DNA of 64,000 bases, from positions 128,122 to 192,121 of the forward strand of contig NW_025931927.1 of assembly GCF_000764305.2 (NCBI RefSeq), read 5' to 3'. Position numbers and translations under genes: made by a program. The notes beneath the pieces were generated by a model that was given only the letters and a program-made list of their open reading frames with translations, ran no database searches and was not told the origin of the DNA. Below, one piece after another: positions 46,330-63,585 of this stretch (the stretch's first letter is position 1; every line of letters begins with the position of its first letter). This DNA comes from Hyalella azteca (taxonomy: Eukaryota > Arthropoda > Malacostraca > Amphipoda > Hyalellidae).

Positions 46330-46860
46330 TTCTGATCATTTTTAAAATCAATCTTCCCTTACAAAAATAACTCACTAGTTGTCTCCAATTTTGCCTACAG
46401 ACGGTGAATATTCCTAGTCAATTTTTAACTTTAATTTCTCCTTAAAAAAATGCTCATTAATTGTTTCCAATTTAGCCTACAGATGGTGAAGATTTCTAGT
46501 CAATTTTTAACAATAATTTCTCCTTACAAAAATACTCACTACTTGTCTGCAATTTTAGTGGAGATTTTTTGAACAGTGGAGAAATTATTGTTGATAATAT
46601 ACGTTTAAAAATCACTTTTCAAAGACAACACTTCTAAAGAATCCAGTGTCTCCAATGCTACACATGTACAATGAATTTCTAATTTTATTTTCAAATATTA
46701 AAAAAATTAATTAACAATTTTTTTAATATATATAAAAACTAAATTTTCAATAAATACTCACTGTCTCCTAATTCGCCTACAGATGGTGAATATTTCTGGT
46801 AAATTTTTAACACTAATTTCTCCTTACAAAATACTCATTGTTTCCAATTTGTGTTTTCAG
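46330..46860 (+). repeat. Degenerate tandem copies of a splice-acceptor region
   Basis: Units of about 76-82 bp ('tctccttacaaaaatactca', 'gtctccaattttgcctacag', then ACGGTGAATATTCCTAG) end in acceptor-like AG at 46400, 46482, 46558 and 46782. The last unit contains the acceptor used for the exon at 46861, which itself begins ACGGTGCGG. A 300-bp spacing between the second and fourth sites suggests further diverged units. Decoy exon starts run into stops soon after the AG. Confidence 0.7.
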
Positions 46861-46931
46861 ACGGTGCGGATCCACCCCATATCCTAGTCACGGAACAAGG
46901 ACGTTTCCACACACACTCCACTAAGTTCCCT
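46861..46931 (+). CDS. Gene A exon, DGADPPHILVTEQGRF segment
   Basis: Acceptor 'gtgttttcag' and donor 'ccct|gtaagt' bound 71 bp, phase 1 to 0. It completes an Asp codon, then reads GADPPHILVTEQGRFHTHS and TKFP. Its 5' edge is the last unit of the tandem acceptor repeat upstream. Confidence 0.75.
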
Positions 46932-48867
46932 GTAAGTTTATACGCAGTTTGATCCTTTATTCATTGTTAGTTAATAATGAATTCTTTTGCATTATATTTA
47001 TTGATCACATTAATATTATCTACATTATTTGTTCGTAGTATTTTGCACTCGGCACCCATGTTAAACTCTTTATCGGACACTTGTTCATTCGTGACTAATT
47101 GTTTAAGCTCGCAAATTATCTTAATTACTTAAAAAATTATTTCGTGGGCAACTGTAAATGAGTTGCACGCACAAAAATAATCGCTACTTTTTTGCATACA
47201 AATTTTCACGGAAAATAAGGAATGGTCTATGTATTTATTCGGGATCATTTTAATATATGTTTGTGCAAGTTAATAACGCTACAATTAGCGAAGTATACCT
47301 TGCAAATAATCATGTGAATCCTTGATCGCACAACATGAGTTTGGTGAATGTAATAAGAGTAATCAGGAGCACGGCATTGTTTGAACAATCAATCAAACTT
47401 TGAATCTTTGAGGTTGTAATTTTCCAGCATATAACCTAATTTTTTTCATTTATGGGAAATTGCAGCGAATACAAATGCATATAAACGTCGTCATGCACGG
47501 CACAAAAATGTTTAGTGCCTGAGGTCCTGACTTCTCATATGTGCTGAGCGAATGAAATTTAAATTAGAATGTAATAAAATGCATGCGACCAGGTGGCTTT
47601 AAGCTTCAATCGCATGAGGTTTGAAGCTATAATGTACTTGCAAATTCGTACCCATTTCGTAAGTTATCCTGTTAAACTTTGTTACATTAATTTTGTTAAA
47701 AGTTGCTCATTTACTTTTTGTCCCAAAAATCTGCTGAATTTTAATTAGAAAATAAATTTTATTCAATTCACCAGCGCTTCATGCACTAATCGAATTTGTA
47801 TCGCTAAACCAAGAATTACTAGACATCAATGGGTGTAATAATTTTTGTCTTCAATTATTGTATCTGGCGACAAGATGTTGTCTTGTGATTATATCGTATG
47901 AAAATATCCCTTGTATATGATATATAAAACAGATCAATACGTGTAACATACGTTAGAAAACTCGTCGTGATGACGTTAAACTATAATGAACAAAATCGAG
48001 TTCGCTGGGCCAGTGTTTCGTTGAATATTATGTATAACTGTTGTTCAAGTTTCGGGTTACAAAAGCACTTGTTCTTCCCCATTCAAAAATTATACCTAAA
48101 GATCGCATGAGGCAAATTTCCATCCAAAATTAAAATTGTATAGGAAATTTTGTATTTAAAATGTATCGTACTTTTGAAAATACGATGTCGTAAAGTACTG
48201 TGTAATGCACAAAGAAATAGAGCATGCGTGGTGAAGAAAATGCACGTTAAAAATGATTTGAAGAATGTTTTTTTTTCGGAACGCACATCACAACACCACT
48301 CGCCCTCACTGCACATGATCTGCTTCATCACTTAATATACTTTTCTTACCATTTTTTCGAACGTTTCTATTTTACATCTGCATCTGCTGTTATTCTCGAT
48401 TGTCTTCATTTTCTTCATTCCTAAGCTATATGCAGCATGAATATCATTGTCTTCTTCGCTATTTTCTCCTCTTTATCTCTCGTGATGATAGTTGTTGTTT
48501 GGTCATAGCTTACCTCGCATACTGCTTCATTATTAATAAAACCTTGAACTTTCGCCTGCCCAGTACAAAATCTTCGTACTGGGCAAAATTGCTAGCTTTG
48601 TACAAATTTGCAGCACAATAATTTGGGCACACATGTTGGTCAATAAGTGTTGATTAAAACAGTAACCATGAATATTTTGACTGCAATATGATATTATTAA
48701 AAATAAATTCTGAAATTATTTTACATAAATATAATTAGAGTTTCGTAACGATTCCTTTATGCTAATTCCATGTTTTAGCGCCTTTGCTAATATCTTTCTG
48801 TACTAACAAACTTTTTTCATTCTCCCTTTCATATACAATAAAATACATAAAACACATCACACACAAG
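46932..48867. other. Gene A intron
   Basis: AT-rich intron of 1.9 kb with no recognised repeat or gene. Near its end is a consensus branch point TACTAAC (about 48801-48807), a T/C-rich tract, and the first following AG at 48866-48867, which I take as the acceptor. Confidence 0.6.
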
Positions 48868-49701
48868 ACCGAAAAGCTTGAAAATGCCAATCAAACGTGG
48901 AGGAATCCAAGCTGCGCTCTAGCTCCTTCAAAATTCCAGCCAAGTCTCTCATGCTCAAAAATTCCTTTCCCGAAAAGCTCACAACTTCAATCAAATTCTC
49001 CATCCAACGGTTTTCATTTCTCAAATGCATTACTCAATTCGAATTTTACGCCTTCTGCAAGCCAAAATCTCCCCACAATCCTTTCAAGACTAGGATCCGT
49101 CACAAACCAGGACGAAACTCAGCTTGTTCAAGCACGACCTCTTTGCAAATCCGACGTCGATTCATCATCCAGATCTACGGGGACTTTGGATCGCAGCGTT
49201 AAGTGGGTTTTCTCATCCACCGTCGATGAAAGCCATTCTTCTGTTACAAGCGACAATGTAATTTCATCGGGTTACTCCAAGGACCAACTGCAGTTCGCTG
49301 GCCAGACGTGCAGAACCAGAAGAAGGAATCTAAATTTCGGGCATCTCGAGTACGTTAAGCGACATCAAACTGATCGCGCAGCAGGCGGCTTGATGAATTC
49401 CTTCTCAGCCGTGTCTTGTACGGACATACATTCTTCGGGTAACGCAGGCGAAGGCAGTTCAGAACTCCCATTTAGCCAAAGTGACAAAGACTACCAAATT
49501 ATCGGATCGTCTGGTACGTCTGGTTGCGTAGTACTAGTGCGTAAAGGAGGCTCGCTACCAAGACTTCCATCGTCATGTGATGGAATTTTCGTCAAGGAGA
49601 CGGAATCTTACTCAGCAATTGCTAAGTTCCTGAGGCGTCAAAAGAACAAGCAAAAACTTGGGGCAGTATCGCAAAGATGTGAACAGAAGAAAACTCCGCG
49701 G
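48868..49701 (+). CDS. Gene A exon, large Ser-rich segment (278 codons)
   Basis: The start is the first AG after a perfect TACTAAC branch site and fits phase 0 from the previous exon. The end uses donor 'ccgcgg|gtatgg' (phase 0). The peptide begins TEKLENANQTW and is rich in Ser, Asn and Gln, with basic patches (CRTRRRNLNFGHLEYVKRH; KFLRRQKNKQK). No known domain is visible. If the donor is skipped, translation stops after four codons at 49714-49716, giving a possible short isoform. An acceptor at 48778 is ruled out by phase. Confidence 0.65.
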
Positions 49702-50147
49702 GTATGGCTCTGTTGATCTTAAATTAATAGCTCTCTGCTCTTGAGCTTTACGAAATATTTAAATTTAAGAAAATAACTTTAGTTCAACCGAATTCACGTT
49801 GACTATCACCACCTGTATCCCACATTACATAGGAGTACGGACAGTTAAAATGGCCCAATTTAATGATGAATTTATGGATTTAGAATGAAGCATCTAGTGG
49901 GAAATATAACAAATCACTCAGTTCAATATTAGTGCTTGATTTAAACTTGTGTATGGAATGATACTGTATGTTTGAACTACAATTACTTTGGTGCTAATGT
50001 CTCGGTCAATAGTCAAATAGTTTGACTATAAAACGAACAAAATTTCGTTTTTTTGCTGTTAACCCTAGTCATATTTTTTCGATAGAAATATCTTTATCGG
50101 TTATAAATTCTGTTACGCATGGTGATCTGAACTTTTCTTATTGCCAG

Positions 50148-62935: not shown

Positions 62936-62965
62936 ACCTGTGATGTACTCATCTGGCTGAAAAAA
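62936..62965 (-). pseudogene. Tubulin-like exon-end remnant (QPDEYITG + donor)
   Basis: On the minus strand a T-tract and AG are followed by codons for P-D-E-Y-I-T-G and a donor GTGAGAC. The aligned end of the functional exon is K-P-E-N-Y-I-F-G with donor GTAAGAC. The differences are conservative amino-acid changes. This suggests a fragment of a related tubulin exon or an old duplicate of the boundary. Short length makes coincidence possible. Confidence 0.4.
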
Positions 62966-63019
62966 AAAAAAGTTTTCTAACATTGCCCGTTCTTTTATCA
63001 ATTTGCAGAGCGCCATTTA

Positions 63020-63350
63020 AACATTAAATGCACATGACAAGTCTCACCAAAAATGTAGTTCTCAAGCTTAAAGAGATGCCCTTTAATAATATGCAGAACG
63101 GTATTTAAAATTTTTGATGAGTTGTTTTTTATCAACATGCAGAGCATGTTGATGTTTTTATCAACATGCAGATAATGTATATCTATACATTAAATATGTA
63201 TGTCAAGTCTCACAAAAAAATGTAGTACTCAAGCTTAAAAGATGCCCTTTAATAATATGCAGAACGGTGTCTAAAATTTTTGATGAGTTGTTTTTTATCA
63301 ACATGCAGATAATGTATGAATATACATTAAATATGTATGTCAAGTCTTAC
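63020..63350 (-). repeat. Tandem copies of the tubulin exon 3' end and donor
   Basis: Units of about 150-165 bp contain 'gtcaagtctcaccaaaaatg' (plus strand), 'tagttctcaagcttaaagag', 'atgccctttaataatatgca' and 'gaacggt'. The copy at about 63041-63080 still encodes GHLFKLENYIFG followed by GTGAGACTTG on the minus strand. The copy at about 63205-63240 has a one-base-longer T run that removes the final G. Confidence 0.8.
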
Positions 63351-63585
63351 CAAAAATGTAGTTCTCAGGCTTGAAGAGATGACCGTAGGTTCCTGCTTTA
63401 ACAGAGTCCATGGTGCCAGGCTCGAGATCGAACAATATCGCGCGTGGGACGAAATGGTTCGTGGACGAAGCTTCGTTAAAGTAAACGTTGATTCTTTCGA
63501 GCTGCAATTCTGCGATGTCTTTGACGGTGCCGTTATGAACTCCCATCGCGTCCAAGCCATGTTCGTCGCTGATGATTTCCCAGAA
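63351..63585 (-). CDS. Beta-tubulin, second exon (about codons 20-98)
   Basis: The acceptor 'taccgttccag' (minus strand) places the intron right before FWEIISDEHG, after the canonical IGAK, a known tubulin intron position. Donor 'tttttg|gtaaga' ends the 235-bp exon in phase 1, which joins the last exon as ...NYIFG|HSGAGNNW. LQLERINVYFNEA and RAILFDLEPGTMDSV are beta-tubulin hallmarks. The segment between DEHG and LQLERIN is about four residues longer than usual (MGVHNGTVKDIAE). The first coding exon (M1-K19) is not seen in the remaining 415 bp. Confidence 0.93.

Follow-up and report, generated by a model that had tools for sequence, protein, structure and literature searches.

Tandem copies of exon edges in neighbouring introns of the amphipod Hyalella azteca

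We analyzed a 64,000-nucleotide stretch of the Hyalella azteca genome (contig NW_025931927.1, positions 128,122 to 192,121 of the forward strand; hereafter the window), in which a preliminary description had listed six exon edges, between 46330 and 63585, copied in tandem into the adjoining intron or flank. The edges belong to two unrelated genes. The first, gene A, encodes a protein with a SAM domain in its C-terminal part (PF00536, E 1e-9); this end was 97% identical to HAZT_HAZT003824 of H. azteca over 62% of the query, and the exons from 52781 on were placed with crustacean and insect homologues. The second, on the minus strand, is a tubulin gene, presumably encoding a beta-tubulin. An edge was counted as matched when the 20 bases straddling it had a copy of at least 18/20 identity within 400 base pairs (bp), which we call the strict setting; five combinations of length and threshold were used overall. 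The features were as follows.

46861-58158, plus strand: gene A, encoding the SAM-domain protein; homologues were used to place the exons from 52781 on, reading frame and splice signals the earlier ones
46338-46866, plus strand: array of ~82-bp units before acceptor 46861; below the strict 18/20 threshold
54512-54714, plus strand: 4.1 units of 49 bp across donor 54526; strict match
54527-55601, plus strand: gene A intron in which reading six frames by eye did not reveal …IRRQLEGLEGMYSE, a segment that crustacean and insect homologues conserve
55446-55608, plus strand: 53-bp array whose last, degenerate unit touches acceptor 55602; marginal, no match at any of five settings
56513-56653, plus strand: two 71-bp units up to acceptor 56654; marginal, no match at any of five settings
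57252-57487, plus strand: two-copy duplication across acceptor 57451; match only at 14/16
58140-58435, plus strand: array of ~61-bp units across the gene A stop codon; strict match
60047-63585, minus strand: last two exons of the tubulin gene (PF00091, PF03953)
63015-63384, minus strand: tubulin donor 63351 and two intronic copies of the exon end and donor; strict match

Inspection by alignment of all six sites in the window revealed that every one of the listed duplications is present. Four were clear (donor 54526, acceptor 57451, the stop codon at 58158 and tubulin donor 63351), one was short (acceptor 46861) and one marginal (acceptor 55602). The array across donor 54526 includes 15 coding bases and retains GT in two of its three downstream extra copies; beyond it stand a single N (54729) and a further array (54730-54842). 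At acceptor 57451 a single upstream copy, identical at 86/107 positions, carries 33-37 coding bases, with AG changed to GG. The array at the stop codon duplicates 19 coding bases including the stop itself, and the copies of the tubulin donor stand at ~150-bp steps, contain 31-34 coding bases and retain GT. A fourth tubulin copy (62938-62956, minus strand) was considered and rejected, as its alignment to the exon end was matched by 213 of 500 shuffles; the same 19 bases form an exon-like stretch in the tubulin intron, flanked by a poly-T acceptor and GTGAG.

The remaining sites are slighter. Every unit of the array before acceptor 46861 carries cctacag|aYggtg, upstream of the genuine ttttcag|ACGGTG, the acceptor copies ending after 46400, 46482 and 46782 and the genuine acceptor lying within the last unit; only ~6 exon bases are duplicated, in register with the 82-bp period, and the exon itself was assigned to gene A by frame and splice signals. 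At acceptor 55602 the array reported by Tandem Repeats Finder (TRF) stops 17 bp short, and the part in common is the gttgaag context with 0-2 exon bases. Acceptor 56654 is a seventh, marginal site, absent from the preliminary description, where the array at 56513-56649 copies the intron end and AG is lost in the copy. The database model P0002 has five additional residues here (SILLQ, 56638-56653), as if the acceptor were an AG further upstream. Only 54526, 58158 and 63351 thus qualified under the strict setting, with 57451 qualifying at 14/16 and 46861, 55602 and 56654 at none of the five settings.

Chance within the window was assessed on 27 edges in 46338-63640 with one detector throughout (self-BLAST, later with TRF added). 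Four of the 27 edges lay inside a repeat, compared with 2.2-4.1 expected under circular shifts (P = 0.15-0.6). Allowing slack gave 5-6 edges versus 4.0-4.9 at 5-10 bp (P = 0.29-0.47), 8-9 versus 4.8-5.5 at 20 bp (P = 0.08-0.12) and 9-10 versus 5.3-6.2 at 30 bp (P = 0.06-0.08). Random placement of the arrays predicted 1.8 or 2.2 edges when at most 40 or 60 coding bases were allowed (P = 0.10 or 0.17) and 3.6 when coding sequence was not barred (P = 0.50). When only founder units were placed, 1.0-1.4 edges were expected compared with 4-5 found (P ~0.003-0.04); this test used 13 hand-listed repeats of the 24 found, the remainder being short or of low complexity. None of these tests is decisive, because the region was picked for its cluster, and the window alone proves little.

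We therefore rely on a sample from the same assembly (518,993,365 bases, 4890 contigs), amounting to ~234 kilobases (kb) of stretches. It comprised 19 stretches, each 10 kb long (15 contig starts, the contigs being chosen by number, plus four neighbouring stretches), and 12 myosin-gene stretches, which contain 55 of the 90 listed PF00063 matches and were selected, with their letters still unseen, for how densely such matches lie. We placed the edges manually, guided by frame, GT/AG and conserved reading, and omitted a few; for one myosin VI-like locus (L024) a myosin VI sequence served as a further guide. Among the 19 stretches, edges were set in seven (L001, L003, L007, L010, L012, L013 and L016) and 12 were dropped, including four with long open frames to which no edges were assigned (L008, L009, L017 and L019); unmatched edges in the dropped stretches would reduce the rate somewhat. 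Five of ten scanned exons passed the Pfam cut-off (AMP-binding twice, OATP twice and 2-oxoacid_dh once), and three further exons gave weak matches to AMP-binding, vitellogenin and RhoGEF. Two exons in L012 gave no convincing Pfam match; we take them to be glutamate-receptor-like.

Under the strict setting 15 of the 158 edges were matched (12-17 over the five settings); they comprise six donors, eight acceptors and one stop codon and come from 8 of 21 loci. Outside the window 12 of 131 edges were matched, in 6 of 19 loci (9-13 edges over the five settings); by subset, the window contributed 3/27, the myosin loci 9/104 and the seven other stretches 3/27. About one in ten of the examined exon edges is thus copied in tandem into the neighbouring intron, and the pattern is not special to the window and recurs in unrelated genes. 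The preliminary description was right in calling exon edges repeatedly duplicated. In the matches listed, within the window and elsewhere, the copies stand on the intron or flank side. For instance, donor 323 of L028 has three more identical copies at 58-bp steps; identical units of this kind could still be miscounted by the assembly. In the same locus the start of the P-loop exon, at acceptor 1910, is duplicated 119 bp upstream. Three copies lie upstream of L024 acceptor 2705, three lie downstream of L012 donor 2831 at ~55-bp steps, and one AMP-binding gene in L001 is matched at both acceptor 2440 and donor 5061. L024 (C3375:3600-8900) supplies 4 of the 12 matches outside the window; 4 of its 13 edges matched strictly and five at looser settings, and two more appeared duplicated by eye. 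Near 355 of L030 and 2051 of L031 (sense coordinates), arrays start at the donor GT with little of the exon copied.

The matched edges have to be seen against the density of arrays. In the window tandem repeats covered 10.4% of the sequence, and in 190 kb taken from elsewhere in the genome 11.4%; coding positions with copies amounted to 0.9-2.4% over subsets and settings. Plain coverage climbed from ~1% within the exon (50-80 bases inside), through 8.7% at the boundary itself, to 12-13% in the intron (50-120 bases away), and binning it by distance gave no peak at the exon edge. The per-base rate in introns of the same locus predicted 13.4 matches for all 158 edges and 11.4 outside the window, close to the 15 and 12 found. 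The impression that edges are hit too often to be random therefore stems in part from the high density of arrays together with coding sequence nearly free of them. Our favoured reading, to which we give a probability of about 0.6, is that the arrays are minisatellites at exon edges, of the type known from amphioxus as mirages, common here since short tandem duplications are frequent and are tolerated at exon edges while being purged from coding sequence. Short tandem duplications would arise often in this genome, and a segment straddling an exon edge would be duplicated through slippage or the repair of breaks. Of the resulting copies, the one next to the exon would keep functioning while the others land in the intron or the 3' flank. 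Such an event would be nearly neutral and hence retained, unlike events within coding sequence, which would be purged. The extra copies could then expand, contract and decay as in any minisatellite, leaving decoy splice sites or decoy stop codons.

Tolerance by itself probably does not explain everything, because edges exceed both a founder model and simulations that are blind to boundaries, and these results weigh against the account just given. When each array was counted once, with positions weighted by 1/copy number, 4.83 matches were expected at all edges and 3.93 outside the window, compared with the same 15 and 12. The ratio spanned 2.2-3.1 over the five settings both for all edges, with P = 0.00004-0.004 and lower bounds from a bootstrap over loci of 1.4-2.3, and for the edges beyond the window, with P = 0.0003-0.016 and lower bounds of 1.2-1.9. 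The P values treat edges as independent, though matches cluster in genes. Forty simulations, run with the units and copy numbers found in 65 arrays, yielded 2.3 ± 1.3 matches, with a maximum of 5, against the 12 found outside the window. The preliminary description had argued that random birth would not hit exon edges so often and had proposed to compare edges with shuffled placements; on our 158 edges that argument holds at the level of founders and fails per base. The excess, and the 4 or 5 of 13 edges matched in L024, would fit a tentative alternative, which we consider possible but not likely, in which exon edges are true birth hotspots, with polymerase pausing, R-loops, nucleosome borders or the step in guanine-plus-cytosine (GC) content at splice sites causing breaks or slippage and several-fold more starts. 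Matching for GC left ratios of 2.2-3.1 (2.5-3.1 for all edges, with lower bounds of 1.1-1.3; 2.2-3.0 outside the window). A GC preference as the full cause was rejected, since the GC-matched founder expectation was 4.8 compared with 15 found. Against hotspots stand the plain coverage, which has no peak at the edge, the per-base ratio of ~1, and the GC-matched excess outside the window, whose interval includes 1 (lower bounds, 0.7-0.9). The myosin loci alone gave a ratio of 1.7-2.6 (P = 0.005-0.13; GC-matched, 1.3-2.0) that was not significant at the two strictest settings, one gene supplies a third of the matches outside the window, and a stop codon is no splice site. Leaving out the window and L024, 5-8 of 118 edges were matched compared with 2.3-3.1 expected, on an edge set that predates the final correction. 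A birth preference for exon edges is accordingly probable yet unproven. Added to the tolerance that we favour, a modest preference for edges or exon-like DNA would account for the 2-3 fold excess over the founder model; exonic or GC-rich DNA may be prone everywhere, with births surviving only at edges, and this would also cover the stop codon.

The preliminary description had also raised a process that creates decoy splice sites, and a related idea is that selection keeps the decoys, for example to tune or buffer splicing. AG, GT or the stop was retained in 29 of 32 copies compared with ~74% predicted by the identity of the flanks (24 of 27 once a mis-set L024 row is left out). The copies were found by similarity across the site, however, so that the sample favours retention and no decoy-creating process is needed to explain it. 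AG has been lost at 57451 and 56654 and GT in one copy at 54526, and a process linked to splicing would leave the duplicated stop codon unexplained; we regard selection for decoys as very improbable. Assembly error at repeats, which we judge equally improbable as the source of the pattern, has visible traces. Three copies of a 38-bp sequence, which we take to be a mate-pair junction adapter, lie at array borders in the window (10302-10339, 13425-13462 and 22805-22842), and 13 exact copies occur in 190 kb of the other stretches, where 11 lie no more than 10 bp from an array. The sole N of the window, at 54729, adjoins donor 54526 and lies between two arrays. The segment …IRRQLEGLEGMYSE, which in homologues directly precedes VLKLLGG, was not found by eye in six frames of 54527-55700, and an isopod query for it gave no match in the assembly at E 1e-3; a gene A exon has therefore probably been lost at this one-N gap. 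Because adapters and the N adjoin arrays, neither the number of units per array nor the sequence around 54526 can be relied on. That the duplications exist is very probable from their letters: the units have diverged, with 86/107 and 93/105 identical positions in two instances, and assembly does not create the substitutions and indels that separate them. The window contains no other N and no other adapter half-site, and the same pattern occurs in other contigs. Gene models and assembly at such exon edges are nevertheless error-prone.

One further repeat in the window stands apart from the edge arrays. At 33644-34181, each strand has an open frame that terminates in a shared peptide (…ENAKKIHHIDIENVSESSSIISS…), which marks an inverted duplication; comparable peptides occur in L007 and L008 and suggest that it belongs to a dispersed element.

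The closest known counterparts are the mirage minisatellites of amphioxus, described in passages of the reports on Adh3 and the globins BflGb6 and BflGb9, with TnC and PGBD5 also cited (PMC3087553, PMC3902484). According to these passages mirages affect both exon boundaries, contain many units with AG or GT, splice apparently normally as seen by RT-PCR and are unstable in length between haplotypes (PMC3087553, PMC3902484); they are tandem repeats across 5' or 3' exon-intron boundaries with units of 10-160 bp (PMC3087553). The H. azteca arrays share some of these traits in that units run across the exon-intron boundary at 54526, 57451 and 63351 (two of them strict) and at the 12 matched edges elsewhere, in that donors and acceptors are both affected, and in that many but not all units keep AG or GT. 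Unlike the amphioxus cases, these come from a crustacean, include a stop codon, are given as a frequency over 158 edges and are known here from the sequence of one assembly. Human internal tandem repeats in segmental duplications are likewise minisatellites at exon-intron boundaries, but the excerpted account ties them to novel introns and recently duplicated genes (PMC2812944). In intron gain by tandem duplication, outlined for the Rogers model and potato RdRp, the duplication also crosses an intron-exon boundary and carries splice signals (PMC4974935, in part); the H. azteca cases differ from potato RdRp in showing no new intron, and in the sole inspected intron with arrays at both ends (L024, 245-675) the units at the two ends differ from each other. 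Our searches of openly licensed papers listed no crustacean report of exon-edge minisatellites. In the related amphipod Trinorchestia longiramus, tandem repeats are listed as the largest repeat class, at 6.18% of the genome (PMC7062882, in part).

Should exon edges, against our expectation, be mutational hotspots in H. azteca, with duplications starting across splice sites at about three times the frequency seen for comparable positions within introns and about one in ten splice sites bearing tandem decoys, the trait would have originated independently in cephalochordates and crustaceans and would continually offer alternative splice sites and material from which new introns could form. Mirages have been described gene by gene in lancelets; here they occupy ~10% of sampled amphipod exon edges, and this rate suggests that mirages follow from a high rate of tandem duplication. 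The H. azteca genome makes the origin of decoy splice sites and new introns countable and testable.

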